Shown here: positions 21 through 50,451 of the stretch, in pieces
Position numbering within the stretch: the stretch's first letter is position 1
Layout: every line of letters starts with the position of its first letter
From: Apostichopus japonicus
Taxonomy: Eukaryota; Echinodermata; Holothuroidea; Aspidochirotida; Stichopodidae
Length of the DNA stretch: 64,000 nucleotides
Assembly (NCBI RefSeq): GCF_037975245.1
Contig: NC_092576.1
Coordinates: 42,505,111-42,569,110, forward strand
Reading direction: 5' to 3'
The notes under the pieces: generated by a model
Told to the model about the DNA's origin: nothing
Databases searched by the model: none
The model's input: only the letters and a program-made list of their open reading frames with translations
Translations under genes and position numbers: made by a program

Positions 21-4754
<4,734 letters not shown>

Positions 4755-12975: not shown

Positions 12976-15900
12976 ATGTGGAAGCAGCTAGTCTTGTTGC
13001 TGGCAGTCTTTGCGCTTGCGCAGACAGCCCCCCTACAGGAGCTTGCTAGGGCCTTGGAAGGAGTCGTGCGTGAGGAACTTGAATACGAGCTTAATGAGAG
13101 ACAAGAAGATAATAATGCCAACGACGATCAGAATCAGAATAGAAGTTTCTATCTAGTTAAAGGTAATGTTTAACTAAAATGTCACGCGATGATAATATTG
13201 GTGGCGTAGTTTACTCATTTGCAGAGGATTGCATACATTCATGTCACTTTAATTAACTCATGAATCATTGAAACTCAAATTAAGCCAGGTTTTTTTTCCA
13301 TCTGAGGTAAAATGTTATATCCGATTACCCCTTTAAAAATACAAAAGCCATTATCATTTGCTAACAATGCCATCCCTTTGTTTTCTTTATGGAGTTTTTA
13401 CAACATAAAAGATGGAGTTAAAGGCAACGACCAAACAAAAAAGTGAAGAGTTAAAAAAAAAAACGTTACAGATATGGTTGCTTTACAACTTACACCACGT
13501 GTTTATTTGTACCCCATATGCTCGCCCTCTACCTCTATCTTCCCTCTACCTCTACCTTTCCTCTCGATCCTTTATCCCAAACTCGACAGGCTCTTACGTC
13601 AAATTGCAGGACGTTTGCTAAAAAGTCCACAAACGTATCAATCATCCTCGACAATATGATCGATTAAGTTTTGTCACATGTACCATCTTAGAAATGTGGC
13701 CACCGTTCTTGCACCGCACCGCATATAATATCCATACTAATATCTATATTAAAGATATGCTGCATTGGCCCAATTATGCCAGATCTTAAATTATGGTTAC
13801 CTCTTTTTTTTCAAATTCTAAAACTAGTTTTACTACCACCATGGAGGAAATTGACCTCACTGGGACATTCAGGTATCTTGTGTGTCCATTTATTATGTCT
13901 GAAGAAAATTTCAAGAGTAAAGACCTCCAGGAAAGTACTTTTTGAAAACTTCCAGCAATTATAGCGTGCTATAATTTGGGTCCAATACTTGCTCCGTTGA
14001 AGCTACCCGTATTTCTTTCATTTCTTAAGTTGTTCTTTTCCAGTAGTAGTAGTAGTAAGTTGAGTCTCGTCTATCCGACATGCTCAGTGAGTAACCTCCG
14101 CCACGTATCACGATCTTGCGCAAGGTTTATTGCTTCCTCGAAATTGTTAATATTAATGTCCTTGAATTGCGACTTTATTTTTCCAGTACTTGTGCAAAAT
14201 ATTTATTTAAGTTTATGTTACTCCTATCAATCAATACATCTCCTCAACACACGTTTCCTCATCGACATTATAACCCTCACATATCATAATATTGTATTTT
14301 AATTATTTCTTTATTTATTTAAGTTTATACTTTCGTTTAATCGTTTTCTTCATTAAACAAGAACTCGATACACAAAACGGAACGTGTGAGTATTCGAAAA
14401 TGTTATTAGCTCAGCCTTCATCATCTTTATTGTTACATAATGCTATCTTTTTTTGCTTCAACAAATATAAATAAATGTTGGAATTCCGTGACAGTCCATT
14501 ACCGTGGAATTCATCGTAAAAAGACCTTAGAGAACGTAATGAAACCTAACGAAATATAATAAATACTGGGAAAACATACTGACGTAAGATAACTATAACC
14601 TTTCATTTATTAATTTTTATTACCATGGCACATTCAAACTACCCTCTAGATCAGGGGTGGGCAACCTTTTTGAATGAATGGGCCAGATATAAGGGTTGAA
14701 AAATTGACTGGGCCGCACCTAAGCAACGACCTGCTGTTGATTTCAAACCTTTGATTCCGAGGACTTTCAAGCAATAGGTGTGTGTACTTAATCTGTATTC
14801 ACAAATACATGTCAATACAGTACAGTTGATACTTAATGGGGATAATAGGCCTACCTGACAGCATCATTAGTGCCTATAAATTCTAAGCAGCAAGCTCGTT
14901 TTTTTGTAAAATGGATTGATTTTTTTCTTGAAACATCTCACGGGCCGCAAAAGAAAATCACTGGCGGGCCGTAGGTTGCACACCCGTGCTCTAGATGTTG
15001 CTCATTATCATAATTCGAACAGAAGTTATTCTTAATCCTCTTCGTCTGAAAAAAAGTCAAGAAAAAAAATAGGCTGAGAAAATGTTTATCTAAGATAAGC
15101 TGACTTAAGGCGTTATTACGTCACTATGCGCATACTCAATCCGCGTTGTTGTAAGTCACTTATAATGTGTCAAATATTTTTATCAACATTTACCCAAACC
15201 GTTTCATTAACTCCACAGGTTTTAATCGGCCTCCAAATACAGAGAGTCCTCCATCACGCGATCGACATCATAAACAGAGAGAAGAGTTTGCAGAACATCT
15301 CTATGAGTATCTGAGAAGGAAGGAGGAACGTAAGGATCCGGCCTTACGAGGAACAGATCAGCCACCAAGAGAAGGCCAACGTCAGCCAGATGAAGAGCCT
15401 AGCAGTCTTGACGGTAGAACAATGGACAAGAGACCACAACAAGACGGAGGCCGCGACGAGGACGACCGTAAACCACCTCCCCCAAGGGGAACTGGACAAC
15501 CACCTCCTGCAAGGGGAACAGATCAGCCAACAAGAGAAGGTCAACGTCAACCCGACCAAGGGCCACGTGGTCTTGACGGTAGTACAATGGACAAGAGACC
15601 ACAACAAGACGGAGGCCGCGACGAGGACGACCGTAAACCACCTCCTCCAAGGGGAACTGGACAACCACCTTCTGCAAGGGGAACCGGACAACCACCTCCT
15701 GCAAGGGGAACAGATCAGCCAACAAGAGAAGGTCAACGTCAACCCGACCAAGGGCCACGTGGTCTTGACGGTAGTACAATGGACAAGAGACCACAACAAG
15801 ACGGAGGCCGCGACGAGGACGACCGTAAACCACCTCCTCAAAGGGGAACTGGACAACCACCTCCTGCAAGGGGAACAGATCAGCCACCAAGAGAAGGCCA

Positions 15901-17071
15901 ACGTCAACCCGATCAAGGGCCACGTGGTCTTGACGGTAGTACAATGGACAAGAGACCACAACAAAACGGAGGCCGCGACGAGGACGACCGTAAACCACCT
16001 CCTCAAAGGGGAACTGGACAACCACCTCCTGCAAGGGGAACAGATCAGCCACCAAGAGAAGGCCAACATCAACCCGATCAAGGGCCACGTGGTCTTGACG
16101 GTAGTACAATGGACAAGAGACCACAACAAGACGGAGGCCGCGACGAGGACGACCGTAAACCACCTCCTCCAAGGGGAACTGGACAACCACCTCCGGCAAG
16201 GGGAACTGGGCAACCACCTCCACCAAGAGGAACTGGACAACCACCTCCAGCAGATGGTACAGGTGCACCACCTCCAAGAGATGGAAGCAAGTCAAGACCA
16301 AGTGGAAATGATCAACCACCAAAGAATGGTCAACAACCAGACAACAATGCACGTGGACTCGATACCGATCGTAAACCACCGCCTCCAAGGGGAACTGGAC
16401 AACCACCTCCTCCAAGGGGAACTGGACAACCACCTCCTCCAAGGGGAACTGGACAACCACCTCCAGCATATGGTACAGGTGTACCACCTCCAAGAGATGG
16501 AAGCATATCAAGACCAACTGGAAATGATCAACCACCAAAGAATGGCCAACAACCAGACAACAATGCACGTGGACTCGATACCGATCGTAAACCACCTCCT
16601 CCAAGGGGAACTGGACAACCAACTCCTCCAAGGGGAACTGGACAACCACCTCCTCCAAGGGGAACTGGACAACCCCCTCCTCCAAGGGGAACTGGACTTC
16701 CACCTCCTGCAAGGGGAACAGATCAGCCACCAAGAGAAGGCCAACGTCAACCCGATCAAGGGCCACGTGGTCTTGACGGTAGTACAATGGACAAGAGACC
16801 ACAACAAGACGGAGGCCGCGACGAGGACGACCGTAAACCACCTCCTCAAAGGGGAACTGGGCAACCACCTCCTGCAAGGGGAACTGGACAACCACCTCCT
16901 CCAAGGGGAACTGGACAACCATCTCCTCCAAGGGGAACTGGACAACCCCCTCCTCCAAGGGGAACTGGGAAACCACCTTCCGAGGGTGGCAAAGGGAGAG
17001 ATCAAGCGGAACGCGCAATGGAAGATGTCTTCTTAAAACGACTATTGGGCTTACTTGCCGACCTACGATAG
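12976..17071 (+). CDS. Secreted proline-rich repeat protein, two coding exons, 679 aa
   Basis: Coding exons are 12976-13162 and 15219-17071, joined in phase 1 (G|GT restores Gly). Residues 1-18 (MWKQLVLLLAVFALAQTA) form a clear signal peptide. A short acidic Asn/Gln-rich segment follows, then about 550 residues of disordered repeats. Module 1 (about 50 residues, with STMDKRPQQDGGRDEDDRKP) occurs six times. Module 2 (GNDQPPKNGQQPDNNARGLD) occurs twice. Between them run many copies of the 9-residue PPPPRGTGQ motif. The C-terminus is a short amphipathic helix-like end (MEDVFLKRLLGLLADLR). Each module 1 has a KR dibasic pair, so proteolytic processing is possible, but a structural, mucus or adhesive role is equally likely. 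I do not recognise a family. The sense frame is favoured by the signal peptide, the matched phase and the non-repetitive C-terminus. AATAAA occurs at 17415-17420 and 17505-17510. Confidence 0.78.
14652..14988. mobile_element. hAT-like non-autonomous element with exact 8-bp target duplication
   Basis: It starts CAGGGGTGGGCAACC and ends GGTTGCACACCCGTG, imperfect inverted termini. It is flanked by CTCTAGAT at 14644-14651 and 14989-14996, an exact 8-bp target-site duplication as expected for hAT elements. Inside are GGGCCGCACC and GGGCCGCAAAAG typical of this kind of element. It lies in the intron of the proline-rich protein gene. Confidence 0.88.
15344..16975 (+). repeat. In-frame coding repeats of the proline-rich protein
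   Basis: Modules of about 150 bp and 27-bp submodules (CCACCTCCTCCAAGGGGAAC core), all multiples of three, so frames on both strands stay open. Near identity between modules at the DNA level points to recent expansion or gene conversion. Confidence 0.9.
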
Positions 17072-20269: not shown

Positions 20270-20455
20270 ACAACCTTTTGGCTAAGATCATGTGTAGTAT
20301 TATGTTACCCTTCTATAGGAGAATGGTGATACACACCTGACGATGATCACACAGTCACAGTCTCGATATAATTGGACTGGGGTTAAGAGCGGATCAGTCG
20401 TTCGGTTCTTTGGGTTTTCGTGCCCAGGTACTTCCTGGGTGACTTTTCTTTATAA
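20270..20455 (+). mobile_element. U2 snRNA-headed SINE, copy A
   Basis: It begins with ACAACCTTTTGGCTAAGATC and continues TGTGTAGTAT. Apart from a few changes this is the 5' end of metazoan U2 snRNA, including the GUAGUA branch-site recognition segment. The body (GATGATCACACAGTCACAGT, then GAGCGGATCAGTCG, then GTGCCCAGGT) is not U2 but is shared with the copy at 35024-35202. No clean target duplication is seen here, though TTATAGTACA on the left loosely matches TTATAAGTATACA on the right. Confidence 0.68.
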
Positions 20456-30302: not shown

Positions 30303-32477
30303 ATGATGAATATCAAAGACACCTGGCTACTGGTTTTATTACTGGAGATTTTCATCGCGTGTCTGCCAGGTATGATGATTCACACGATATAAACTAGAAT
30401 ATTCTATTAATAAATTAGATAAATAATTAAAGCGTTTCTATCCAAATAGGTTTCGAGAAATTTCTTTGTTGAAATACCGGTAACAAGCCTCCGTGCCCAT
30501 GAATGAGTCATTCTTAATAAAAGCAAAAGTAAAATTGTAGGTGCTATCCATCCATCCATCCATCCATCCATCCATCCATCCATCCATCCATCCATCCATC
30601 CATCCATCCATCCATCCATCCATCCATCCATCCATCCATCCATCCATCCATCCATCCATCCATCCATCCATCCATCCATCCATCCATCCATCCATCCATC
30701 CATCCATCCATCCATCCATCCATCCATCCATCCATCCATCCATCCATCCATCCATCCATCCATCCATCCATCCATCCATCCATCCATCCATCCATCCATC
30801 CATCCATCCATCCATCCATCCATCCATCCATCCATCCATCCATCCATCCATCCATCCATCCATCCATCCATCCATCCATCCATCCATCCATCCATCCATC
30901 CATCCATCCATCCATCCATCCATCCATCCATCCATCCATCCATCCATCCATCCATCCATCCATCCATCCATCCATCCATCCATCCATCCATCCATCCATC
31001 ATCCATCCATCCATCCATCCATCCATCCATCCATCCATCCATCCATCCATCCATCCATCCATCCATCCATCCATCCATCCATCCATCCATCCATCATCCA
31101 TCCATCCATCCATCCATCCATCCATCCATCCATCCATCCATCCATCCATCCATCCATCCATCCATCCATCCATCCATCCATCCATCCATCCATCCATCCA
31201 TCCATCCATCCATCCATCCATCCATCCATCCATCCATCCATCCATCCATCCATCCATCCATCCATCCATCCATCCATCCATCCATCCATCCATCCATCCA
31301 TCCATCCATCCATCCATCCATCCATCCATCCATCCATCCATCCATCCATCCATCCATCCATCCATCCATCCATCCATCCATCCATCCATCCATCCATTGA
31401 AGCTCATCTAGCCTGGGGCTTTTTATAATATTTTACATTCAAACTACCCGTTGATCAAAATAATGTAATCAATCCCATTGTTGTAAGTTTCTGCAGTACA
31501 TCTCTCCAATAAGTAATACGAATTTTACCATTCCTTGTGTTTCTTCCAGGAGTTTCCGCCTTTCAATGCTATGGCTGTAACAGTACAGAATCATGCAACG
31601 ATCCATTTGATCCCAGTGCAAACCACTTAATCGACTGTGACGGTTACTGTTACGTAAGTATGACATCATTAAATGTCCTCGTTCAGATTGGAGGGTCCAT
31701 GATCCAGATCTACAAAGTCGATCTCATTTAAATAAATAAGAAAGCTGGGATTTCAATTATTCATTGAGTCAATCAGAAACGATCTCGCCATATAGTAAAC
31801 GAGGGACAGGGGATGACTAGACGGTGAGGTGCGGAGGGGGGGGGGGGTGGAGGTGCATGGTGGGTATAAGAAAGGAATGTTCTATCATTCCCGTAATATG
31901 CAGTAGCACAACCTTTTTGGTATGATTTAGGTCTGATACATTTTCGATGACTAACATTCCATTATAACAAAGCCATCTATTATAACAAAGCCATCAATTG
32001 TAACAAAGCCATTCATGATAACAAATCCAACTATTGTCTTGAATTATACACAAATATAGTATCAACAAACAGAATATTTATTTTGTCCGTTCTGTTAGTA
32101 AAAGTGTTTAGAATCATCGGGCATTAAATTACCCTATACTGTCTGTTTCAAACTGTCCCCATCAGGCGAAACGTCAGGTGCTAACATGAATATGCATATT
32201 TCTAATTATTATTCATTGAATATGTATGATCTTCTTCCCACAGAAAACTACTATGAAAAACACAGAAGGACAGATGATGTTTGTAATGCGCGGTTGTCAG
32301 TCATCCAATATTTCAACTTGCCCAGATAAGTGTCTGAAAACTGGAAGCGAACAGTGTAACTTCTGTTGTAACGAAGACAAGTGCAATAGCGCCATCTATT
32401 TTCTTCCTACATGGCCTGTAATGACGTCACCCATTATTCTAACAGCGTATCGATTATTTCAAGGACCTTTTCTTTAA
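30303..32477 (+). CDS. Ly6/uPAR-type small secreted or GPI-anchored protein, gene 1 (134 aa)
   Basis: Coding exons 30303-30369, 31550-31653 and 32244-32477 join in phases 1 and 0. An acceptor at 30280/30281 implies an upstream UTR exon. Residues 1-23 are a signal peptide ([16 protein letters not shown] core). The mature part has 12 cysteines in a three-finger arrangement: FQCYGC at the start, CDGYCY at the exon 2 end, RGC, and the hallmark CCNEDKCN near the C-terminus. The final segment (about 30 residues, with [15 protein letters not shown]) is hydrophobic and may be a GPI-attachment signal, though it is weaker than in the neighbouring paralogue. Known: Ly6/uPAR proteins are extracellular binding or modulating domains. 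The ligand cannot be told. AATAAA occurs at 32719-32724. Confidence 0.8.
30546..31397. repeat. (CATC)n microsatellite, about 850 bp, in intron 1 of Ly6 gene 1
   Basis: About 210 units of CCAT with two one-base register slips, near 30999 and 31093. It ends about 150 bp before the exon 2 acceptor. His-Pro-Ser-Ile and Met-Asp-Gly-Trp open frames on the two strands are repeat artefacts. Confidence 0.98.
31962..32030 (+). repeat. Short tandem repeat in intron 2 of Ly6 gene 1
   Basis: Four imperfect copies of a unit of about 18 bp, ATTATAACAAAGCCATC. Confidence 0.8.
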
Positions 32478-34865: not shown

Positions 34866-35023
34866 TTCGCAGTAATTGCTCTTAGGAAGATAATTTGACA
34901 AAGGCCATTTAAGTACATACACAACGACCGTTTGCTACAGAACTCTCTTTAAATAATCGAGGATATCTGCCTATACAATCTAAGTTTGAACTTTCTCGTT
35001 GGGCTAATATACCCGTTATCAGG

Positions 35024-35202
35024 CATCTCGGCCTTTAGGCTAAGATCATGTGTAGTATCTGTCCCCCTTTCGAGGGGTATGGTGATGCACACCCGACGAT
35101 GATCACACAGTCACAGTCCCGATGTAAGGTGACTGGGGTTGAGAGCGGATCAGTCGTTTGGTGCCCAGGTTCTTTCCTGTGCGACTTTTGCTTAAAAAAA
35201 TG
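35024..35202 (+). mobile_element. U2 snRNA-headed SINE, copy B, with 13/14 target duplication
   Basis: The head (35026-35061: CTCGGCCTTTAGGCTAAGAT, then CATGTGTAGTATCTGT) differs from the 5' end of metazoan U2 snRNA at only about two positions over some 36 bases. A non-U2 body shared with copy A follows, with a short C5/G4 hairpin (CCCCCTTTCGAGGGG), and a 3' end GCTTAAAAAAATG. It is flanked by TACCCGTTATCAGG (35010-35023) and TACCCTTTATCAGG (35203-35216), the mark of LINE-driven retrotransposition. It lies in the predicted first intron of Ly6 gene 2. Confidence 0.82.
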
Positions 35203-35607
35203 TACCCTTTATCAGGGATAAACCGTTAAACTACAGCATTACATGAATGATTAATAATGACATAGTTAATTGTTTTGATAAGAGATTTTGTCTATGAACG
35301 GAGGGAATCATTGATTATTACCGTATTTCACATTTTGTTGTTTTGCCATGCTTTTGGTTTCGTTATGTTAGTTTTGTTTTGTGTGTGAAGAACACTGGTC
35401 GGGAAACTGTCTTGATTTGATCTATATATTATAAAAACATTATTTTGGAGTAATTCTTTCACACGCTTGTTAAATTTGCCGGAAGTTGGCGATGGCGTAA
35501 GAGAAACATCAAGCAGATATTATATTTAATAATTCTTATGTTTTTTTTTTAAATTACTTCATAGATGGGTATCTAAGTTGATTTCTTTAGATTGCTATTT
35601 CATCAAG

Positions 35608-47792: not shown

Positions 47793-50451
47793 GAAATAGC
47801 ATGTTTCAATGGGACTACAGGAGCATTTCTTCTTCCATATGCAGACAGAGAGGAGTAATCAAGAAGCTCCTTGCTGTTTACACAAACAAATCTTTTACTG
47901 ATATCCGTAGGTTCTAGTGAAAATACACGCAAGTCCATGTTCAGAATTGACTGGTGAACCCTTGCAACAATGTACACTTGTGAGTTGTCCTTTATAACTG
48001 CAAAGAGAACCTGTCCAAACAATAAACCCTTGTCATCTTTACCAATAACAATGTAATCCCCCTTTTAGTACTTTGTTCCTCGAAAAGTAAGCTCATAAGT
48101 AACTTGATCCGCAACTGTTGCATTAAGTACGTTCATACACCCTTGTAGTGCTTCTGCATACGTTTCTAAATGTAATGGAACTGTTCGTTTTGCATCAATA
48201 GCCACAGGGAAGAAAGTCCCAGCACACATGTAAGATTGTAATAGTTGATGCCTTTCTGCCAATGTAAGACACAAGTTCTTAAAGTTATGCAAATGACGCA
48301 CACATCTTTTGAAAAAGGAATGCTTACTCTCAAACCTCATAGTCCATGTTCGAATTAGAGTACCGAACTGCAGTATCAGCATAGGGTAATGGTTTAGAAA
48401 ATGATGCTTTGGTCGCATTCTACGCTCTGGAAAAAGTCGGTGACGCGACTCCAAGTACTCCTCGATAAGAAAACTCAGATTAGCAATTTCAGCCTCATCA
48501 ATACTAGGAGTACATAGAAGTTCCACCATATCATGTAGCTGAAGAAAAAACAGCCAGACTGCGTCGTTTGGATCAGAAATTTTATCGCCAATAAGAACAG
48601 GCAAAAGCCTTACAAGGCACCAATTCTCTACTGCCTGTCCGCCCAAGTTTTCGCCATTTGGATTAACTTTACTTGGTTGATTGTTTCTATCTGACCCAAG
48701 ATACTTGAACTGCATTATTCTTCTATTCAGGTCTGTGTATGTTAGCCACTTTTTCTGTTTGATGAAATAGGCTAAAATCAGTGCCACATCATAATTCAGA
48801 ACCCCTTCAAATAGATCATGGCCAAGACAAGGTGGCAAACCTGAACATACATGAAAATATTCCAGTTCTTTAAAAATGGAGTCGAACTTGATCCCCTGTA
48901 CAATTCTCATGCCCTGATCCTGGATATGTTGCAATGCTCTATTATAATTGTTTTCATTTCGGATGAGACCAACAGCACATGGGTCGTCATGAAATTCTGT
49001 ATTTGTAACTGAGCACCACCTACACCAACATGGAGTACTACTGAAGTTTTCTACGAATCCACCGATACAACGCGATCCAAGATTATCACCAGCAATAAAA
49101 CTTAAGGCACCCTTTTACTGGATGCTGCTCGCCAGCTATGTCAATACCATTTAGTTCAAGATCTTTCAGATCATCAATCAATGGTCTTAGCAACTTTTCC
49201 TGTCCAAAGTACTTAAAATCATTCTCATTGCAAAGGAGTACTAGTAACATGTGATTCACACTCGACCTGAGGTGTGGTCTGATATTAGCGAGTGTCATGT
49301 ACACTGCAAGAATTTTGTGGGTTTTTTTTCTTGCTGGACCCTAGTGGATTGCACACCTCAAAGGAATCTTGATAGAGGATTAGCTTTAAAGCCTGGCAGA
49401 AGGCATTTTCTTTAAAAGCGGCACCATCAGTTATATCATAAAATACTTTTCCCTCTTCATTAGGTCTATGGTTTCCATGATACCTAGGGAATTTGGTACA
49501 CAGATATTCCTCTTGAACAGACTTGTTCTTGAATAGGTTCTGCGAAGAATCTTTGATATGTATGTACTGAAACTCTCGTTCTCTATTGTTATCATTTCTA
49601 TCCAATTTAGTGCAACATAATTAAATTTCTTTTTATTTGTTGATTTACGGATGTAGTTTAATCGCAGGGGTCCGGTGCTACATTCGGATAATAGGTCAGA
49701 TGATTTCATTTCATTAATTAGTTCTTTCGCAGTTTGTTCTGGTATGTCTAGTTCATCAGTCAATTTTGACAACAGTTTCTGGAAAATCACTGTCTGGCCT
49801 AGGCTGTGTATATCATTGAATTGTTCTACAATGTGCTGGACAGTTGAAGAAGGAAGCAGGTATTTTGATTCTAACTGCAGATGAAACAGTAGGAGATTTT
49901 GTACAAACAAATCTTCAACGTTATCTGTTTCTTGCAGAACTTCCAATTCATCCAAAGAATTTGCATCAAATTCGGCATATACAGTAGCATCGTCCTGATT
50001 TTCGAAATTGTTCTCTATTGCAATGAGTCCTGCAGGAATATGATCAGTCATGTCTGACTTGTGACACCTTGACAAATGCGACGTGAATGATGATTTCTTT
50101 GTAAATGATGATTCACAGTTGTTAAATGGGCACAGAACAGTAGCCCCAACATCAAGGTGTTCTTTCAAGTGTTTCAACAAAGCTGGTATGTCATTACATA
50201 CTTGTCTGCAGAAGATTATATCACACTGTAATGGAATATCAACATTTCTATATCGCCTATGAACTGCTGGTTTAGAATGGTCTCTTTGTAAATGGCTAAC
50301 CAGAGTAAGTGGAAAGTTGTCGCAAGCATGCATCACGTGGACAGGGAAACGACCTGTTACACTCATTCCTGTGAAACCTACAGTGGTTAACATAACCTTT
50401 TATTGTTGTAAGTTGCTGTTCACAGTAGGAGCACTTGAAAACTTCATCCAT
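47777..50451 (-). pseudogene. Broken transposase-like gene with N-terminal zinc fingers
   Basis: It starts at ATG 50451-50449 (MDEVFKCSYCEQQL). The N-terminal third has C2H2-like fingers (CSYC...H...H, CPFNNCESSF...H...H). The rest contains EVCNPLGSSKK, GDNLGSRCIGGFVENFSS, a CWCRWC pair, GLPPCLGHDLFEGV and RPKHHFLNHYPM, motifs I associate from memory with a transposon-derived family common in fish and marine invertebrates. HDLFEG may carry a catalytic Asp, as in CMC/EnSpm-type transposases. Frameshifts are inferred near 50310-50340, 49600, 49320 (A8 run) and 49085 (T4 run), and there is an in-frame TAA at 48067-48065. The reading then continues in frame to a TAG at 47777. The breaks mean it is decayed, unless the homopolymer ones are assembly errors. 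Ends of the element were not found. Confidence 0.72.

Follow-up and report, generated by a model that had tools for sequence, protein, structure and literature searches.

We analysed a 64,000-nucleotide stretch of the Apostichopus japonicus genome (contig NC_092576.1, positions 42,505,111 to 42,569,110; hereafter the window), which carries at 35024-35202 a short interspersed element (SINE) whose 5′ head derives from U2 small nuclear RNA (snRNA). The results demonstrated that this element belongs to a real, recently active family of U2-headed SINEs in an echinoderm genome, and that copies of the family reside in U2 genes at a target site of long interspersed elements (LINEs). The window element quite probably derives from a non-autonomous retroelement with source copies inside U2 snRNA genes, and is one of its dispersed copies. 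We give an even chance to a broader proposal, according to which snRNA-headed SINEs are promoterless parasites of their target genes, with master copies in U2 genes at the Keno/Utopia site, use of the snRNA promoter, a head that acts as both transcript start and homology arm for return behind a U2 promoter, and about a thousand dispersed copies that are off-target debris.

A family of SINEs with a U2-derived head

The window element consists of a 39-base U2-like start, an unrelated body, and an end formed by a hairpin and an A-run. Aligned to the species' own U2, its head covers nt 5-43 (35024-35062) and departs from it at two positions (T6A and T18A), in close agreement with the initial annotation, which had proposed from the letters alone a U2-derived head of about 36 bases with about two changes. 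U2 was the best of the 19 Rfam matches listed for the window (35020-35097, plus strand; 37.6 bits, E 0.00055), at a score below the gathering score of 46, and a search of Rfam with this copy returned no match besides U2. The flanks at 35010-35023 and 35203-35216 were identical at 13 of 14 positions, as had been noted, and form a 14-bp target-site duplication with one mismatch. The description of the insertion as fresh had to be given up, since the window copy shares only 87.9% identity with the family consensus and is thus an old copy. The second copy at 20274-20455 was 77.6% identical to the window copy over 183 aligned columns and 87.4% identical to an array-resident copy over 174 columns, a value tied for the lowest among the 64 non-array copies compared. 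No clear target duplication was seen around this second copy in an unscored inspection by eye.

To determine the size of the family, we searched the genome (671.6 Mb, 35 contigs) with a 42-nt pattern spanning the U2/body junction. With up to three mismatches the pattern occurred in 994 places (504 and 490 on the two strands), compared to 0 for the reversed control. These 994 places represent a subtype with a long first hairpin; a subtype with a short first hairpin, to which the array copies read belong, was found in 190 places with up to two mismatches, a count that may overlap with the 994. The exact 17-nt tail, with a non-A base at one position behind it, occurred 457 times. The SINE is about 190 bp long, and in an alignment of 30 copies most ended in ..AAAAAGTA; GTA followed the A-run in 41 of 66 copies. 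The family tail is predicted to fold into two hairpins (z -3.35), with GT pairing with AC in the predicted tail hairpin.

The consensus head was identical to the 5′ end of the species' own U2 at 45/45 positions. Both carry T at nt 30, a position occupied by A in the Rfam consensus. Past nt 45 the SINE and U2 sequences diverged. The initial annotation had allowed that only two copies might exist or that the U2 match might be due to chance. Because the consensus equals host U2 at all 45 positions, the match is not a chance one, and the 994 common junctions rule out both a chance match and a lone retro-copied U2. Alternative heads on the same body were also sought, with a pattern in which U2 nt 33-36 were all changed. 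It gave 26 places; by eye, on 35 letters each, most looked like U2 heads that had been truncated or altered by indels or substitutions, and no second head common to several of them was seen. The expectation of many copies bearing target duplications held for the copies and held in part for the duplications, for which 27 of 63 copies (some of them duplicates or tandem copies) reached a score of 12; among mismatched pairings, 55 of 1238 did so. Like classical SINEs, the elements are therefore short, multicopy and dispersed, with target-site duplications in part of the copies, and like SINEU-type elements they carry a U2 head fused to an unrelated body and copied as a family. These results support the reading of an snRNA-headed SINE family. 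The mitochondrial code of the animal is of echinoderm type: in 267 codons of COX1, carried by the 16,099-bp contig C35, AAA falls at expected Asn positions and ATA at expected Ile positions, which agrees better with translation table 9, named for echinoderms and flatworms, than with table 5.

Two local clusters were also observed. Eight exact junctions lay in one orientation at C5:11042410-11066025 with a spacing of about 2.7-4.1 kb, and six exact tails lay within 0.9 kb at C2:21947819-21948685.

SINE copies within U2 genes at the insertion site of LINEs

We located U2 genes with the RF00004 model. Of 40,968 first-look candidates, 46 were scored and 46/46 were above the cut-off; the number is a lower bound. 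C15 holds 4 of the scored genes, and the other 42 lie on C16, where a 645-bp unit is repeated in tandem at 31.0-31.16 Mb. LINEs interrupt some U2 genes in the C16 array. The one LINE read whole (L092) contains open reading frame 1 (ORF1) with CCHC knuckles and ORF2 with an EEP endonuclease and RVT_1, both frames open; this ORF2, the one scanned, matched PF03372 (E 7.9e-13) and PF00078 (E 1.3e-35). With its last 350 aa as query, 116 matches were obtained, 20 of them within C16:30.99-31.17 Mb. The LINE 5′ junctions that were read retained some 30-32 nt of U2 upstream (with two changes in L092), and behind the array LINE 3′ ends U2 restarted at nt 39, TCTGTTCTTTTCAGC.

In PMC4640811, Utopia and Keno are described as U2-targeting LINEs with U2 nt 39 as 3′ flank, Keno having an APE-like endonuclease. 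Because the nt 39 flank and the APE-like endonuclease agree with that description, the array LINEs appear Keno-like, a label taken from site and domains and not from phylogeny. The insertion site of the SINE is identical to that given there for Keno and Utopia, with U2 downstream starting at nt 39, and the array LINE shares with Keno an APE-like endonuclease and a reverse transcriptase. Keno and Utopia are autonomous LINEs, whereas the SINE is about 190 bp long.

In array U2 genes the SINE is inserted after nt 38, where the array LINEs also insert. The tail-U2 junction, ..TTCTTAAAAAGTA/TCTGTTCTTTTCAGC (slash, junction), was found in 7 places: 6 exact matches lie in the U2 array, and the seventh, on C20, has one mismatch. 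In three copies (L060, L040, which equals the L039 copy, and L099) the order was native spacer, U2 nt 1-45 (one base changed in L040), body, tail and U2 from nt 39. As these full-length array copies lie behind the native U2 spacer, U2 nt 1-45 stands directly before the body. Truncated copies marked the same site. L100 has a 5′-truncated SINE between U2 nt 1-53 and a second U2 stretch that begins at nt 39, so that nt 39-53 form a 15-bp duplication. In L097 this 15-bp sequence stands between a LINE 3′ end and a 5′-truncated SINE, behind which U2 again begins at nt 39. In both, the final one or two bases of the duplication may equally be SINE. Two head-to-tail SINEs in L098 met at the joint AAAAAGTA/TCTGTTC, which is the U2 site of a SINE head. 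In Rfam an array copy matched U2 and, far below their cut-offs, two other models. The C20 place (L101, C20:14906200-14906800) proved to be an old U2 copy far from the arrays, in which a long-hairpin SINE occupies the nt 39 site and much of the 3′ part of U2 is retained.

Further LINEs were seen elsewhere in the genome. A dispersed family related to the array LINEs, with A-run ends, was found at C18:7756400, C13:14832650 and C8:3937730 (L093-L095), and a tRNA-like gene (by eye) lay within about 250 bp in the 3′ flanks of two of the three (L094 and L095), which hints at insertion beside tRNA genes. Frames of LINEs that share about 30% identity with the one in the U2 array form clusters at C17 15-25 Mb, C16 26-30 Mb and C11 13-14 Mb, which suggests another array-specific target.

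Dispersed copies, mobilisation and competing explanations

To relate dispersed to array-resident copies, we compared two of five selected dispersed copies of the array subtype. L103 was identical to array copy L099 at 180/180 bases; no duplication was visible around it, and its target reads TCTG like U2. L104 matched array copy L060 at 187/188 positions, started at U2 nt 1, and was flanked by a perfect 15-bp duplication, the length found in U2. Among 30 copies selected solely for an exact internal junction, 16 started within U2 nt 1-5, and none showed a resemblance above 10/20 to the array spacer beyond nt 1.

The dispersed target sites were examined on both sides of the nick. On the left, at 18 sites with full context (from 21 among 47 GT-starting tails, out of 66 A-run copies), T occupied position -2 in 13/18 (P 3e-4) and A position -1 in 14/18 (P 7e-5). 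Behind GTA, 22 sites were kept after cleaning and 11 dropped as duplicates or tandem copies, L101 and the U2 loci having been excluded beforehand; T was found at +1 in 12/22 (P 0.015) and C at +2 in 14/22 (P 7e-6). Before cleaning, the 29 tails had given T at +1 in 15 and C at +2 in 20, and cleaning shrank the motif from TA/YCT to TA/YC. Since the U2 site reads TA/TCTG, the dispersed sites resemble a weakened U2 site. Moreover, SINEs had entered other SINEs at the U2 site of the head in 9 places, plus 4 of the array subtype (one in the array), compared to about 0.002 such sites expected by our own arithmetic for random insertion of about 1,200 copies.

SINEs are usually explained by an internal RNA polymerase III (Pol III) promoter that travels with the element. 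Judged by sequence, no such promoter (A and B box) was found: the best A and B boxes reached 6/9 specified letters each, scores that letter shuffles also reached in 996 and 946 of 1000 cases, and T4 runs occurred at consensus positions 15, 150 and 180. A comparison of the 150 bp before 30 dispersed copies with the 300 bp before three U2 genes gave short matches only (best 16 nt, E 0.004). The dispersed copies thus have no visible promoter, and the full-length U2-resident copies keep the native U2 upstream region.

The presence of copies in U2 genes at a known LINE site shifts the likely mechanism from that of an ordinary SINE to that of an element dependent on its target's promoter. The U2 promoter would co-transcribe a U2-resident copy, and the resulting RNA would run from U2 nt 1 through body and tail. 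A Keno-type U2-targeting LINE, with its APE-like endonuclease and reverse transcriptase, would nick between nt 38 and 39 and reverse-transcribe this RNA. Within a U2 gene, the head would allow the new copy to be joined to the U2 half upstream and so come to lie behind the promoter again. At off-target TA/YC sites, the same reaction would leave a copy that has a U2 head and a target duplication but no promoter, such as that in the window.

Several observations weigh against this proposal. The long-hairpin subtype, with its 994 places, was unseen in array U2 genes among the copies read, so that its residence in U2 is an extrapolation for which L101 provides the sole U2 setting. Many family copies have no evident target duplication, as the 27 of 63 copies reaching the threshold indicate. 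At the dispersed sites, T at +3 (10/22, P 0.1) did not differ clearly from background; TCTG as in U2 stood behind 2/29 tails only, one being the U2 copy L101; and the -2 and -1 counts come from GT-starting tails, so that a target-derived GT would bias them toward such sites, though GT is predicted to pair with AC within the tail hairpin. The dimer junctions may be copied dimers and not separate insertions. Finally, five array LINE 3′ ends resembled the SINE body and tail hairpin no better than shuffles did, in a comparison of the tail that omitted the last ~10 SINE bases. The terminal AAAGTA is common to the SINE and 4/5 of these LINE ends.

The partner LINE with a matching 3′ end that the initial annotation anticipated was not found among the LINE 3′ ends read, that is, the five array ends and four inspected by eye (L093-L096, selected from 18 LINE 3′ regions), of which L093-L095 end in long A-runs and L096 otherwise. 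The mobiliser is thus inferred from site and duplication. L091, considered as a tail-sharing LINE, was rejected; it was the sole place where the tail-hairpin pattern occurred with three changed letters upstream, and it is perhaps a truncated SINE.

Among other explanations, the one that survives best, though we consider it unlikely, is an ordinary SINEU that arose when a single template switch fused U2 to a SINE body. Such an element would propagate from dispersed loci by its own promoter, and the copies in U2 genes would be occasional by-products of a LINE with a partial preference for U2. This would fit the 994 places, of which none of about 100 listed lay in the U2 array, and the absence of the long-hairpin subtype from the array copies read. 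It fits poorly with Pol III boxes no better than chance and internal T4 runs, with the lack of clear U2-upstream similarity before the 30 dispersed copies, and with full-length array copies standing directly behind native U2 spacer.

We also considered whether the element is an internally deleted U2-targeting LINE instead of a SINE. The R2 short internally deleted elements (SIDEs) of Drosophila, as presented in PMC3414825, are non-autonomous, reside in the gene that a LINE targets and rely on being co-transcribed with it; they are internal deletions of R2 or of R2/R1, and a ribozyme excises them from the co-transcript. Non-autonomous residence in a LINE's target gene is common to those SIDEs and to the present SINE, and likely co-transcription would be a second shared trait. 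Compared to those SIDEs, the present element keeps the target's 5′ part as its head, has a body that is not LINE-derived as far as read, and occurs in about a thousand dispersed copies. An origin by internal deletion is improbable, since body and tail hairpin are unlike the one whole LINE and the five LINE 3′ ends read; a LINE family that was not read could be the parent. Repeated independent chimeras, which would require a new template jump onto U2 from a LINE or another RNA for every copy, are hardly credible, since the identical junction in 994 places (up to three mismatches in 42) argues that it formed once and was then copied, even though R2 template jumps onto small RNAs are reported in PMC3414825.

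Window features and relation to known elements

The features of the element and of its second copy are collected in Table 1.

Table 1. Position and supporting evidence of the SINE features in the window.
Feature	Position	Strand	Evidence
Left target-site duplication, TACCCGTTATCAGG	35010..35023	+	13/14 identical to 35203-35216
U2 snRNA-derived head, host U2 nt 5-43, two changes	35024..35062	+	Rfam U2 match; alignment to host U2 genes
SINE body, with hairpin CCCCCTTTCGAGGGG and additional sequence	35063..35162	+	No non-U2 Rfam match; unlike the LINE sequence read in the U2 array
SINE tail: GCCCAGG..CCTGTGC hairpin, then ACTTTT..TTAAAAAAA	35163..35202	+	30-copy alignment
Right target-site duplication, TACCCTTTATCAGG	35203..35216	+	Match to left flank
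Second SINE copy, 5′-truncated, more diverged	20274..20455	+	77.6% over 183 columns; 87.4% to array-resident copy over 174 columns

Other features were observed in the window. An open frame with a proline-rich tandem repeat (PPPRGTGQPP-like; 27-bp and longer units) lies at 15155-17071, a GPS motif (G-protein-coupled receptor proteolysis site; PF01825, E 1.5e-6) at 3587-4075, and an (ATCC)n array, nearly perfect over its roughly 213 units, at 30546-31397. On the minus strand, 48065-50399 contains two adjoining long open frames, perhaps parts of one transposon gene, one of them with a weak C2H2-like match (PF17017) below the cut-off.

The SINEU elements of crocodilians (Kojima, 2015) are reportedly short dispersed elements with a 5′ head from U1 or U2 snRNA and a link to a Tx1-clade LINE. 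The present family resembles SINEU so described in carrying an snRNA-derived head on short dispersed elements. It differs from that description in belonging to an echinoderm, in having copies in U2 genes at the LINE site, and in its U2-like motif at dispersed sites. Crocodilian SINEU is also mentioned in PMC8010984. Among the papers listed in a literature search, neither an invertebrate SINE with an snRNA head nor a SINE described as resident in U2 genes appeared; the search was made without Repbase or the main SINEU paper, so an earlier entry may exist. No matches were found in viral contigs, genome_contigs or phages, non-animal collections that are hence uninformative on novelty.

These results add an echinoderm genome to those with snRNA-headed SINEs, and offer a direct origin for the heads and a tie to a known LINE target site. 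The promoter problem of a SINE is apparently solved here by returning into the gene whose promoter is needed, an idea that can be tested in one genome with one U2 array. If the proposal of promoterless parasites of the U2 gene is true, it would account for the origin of SINEU heads in general.
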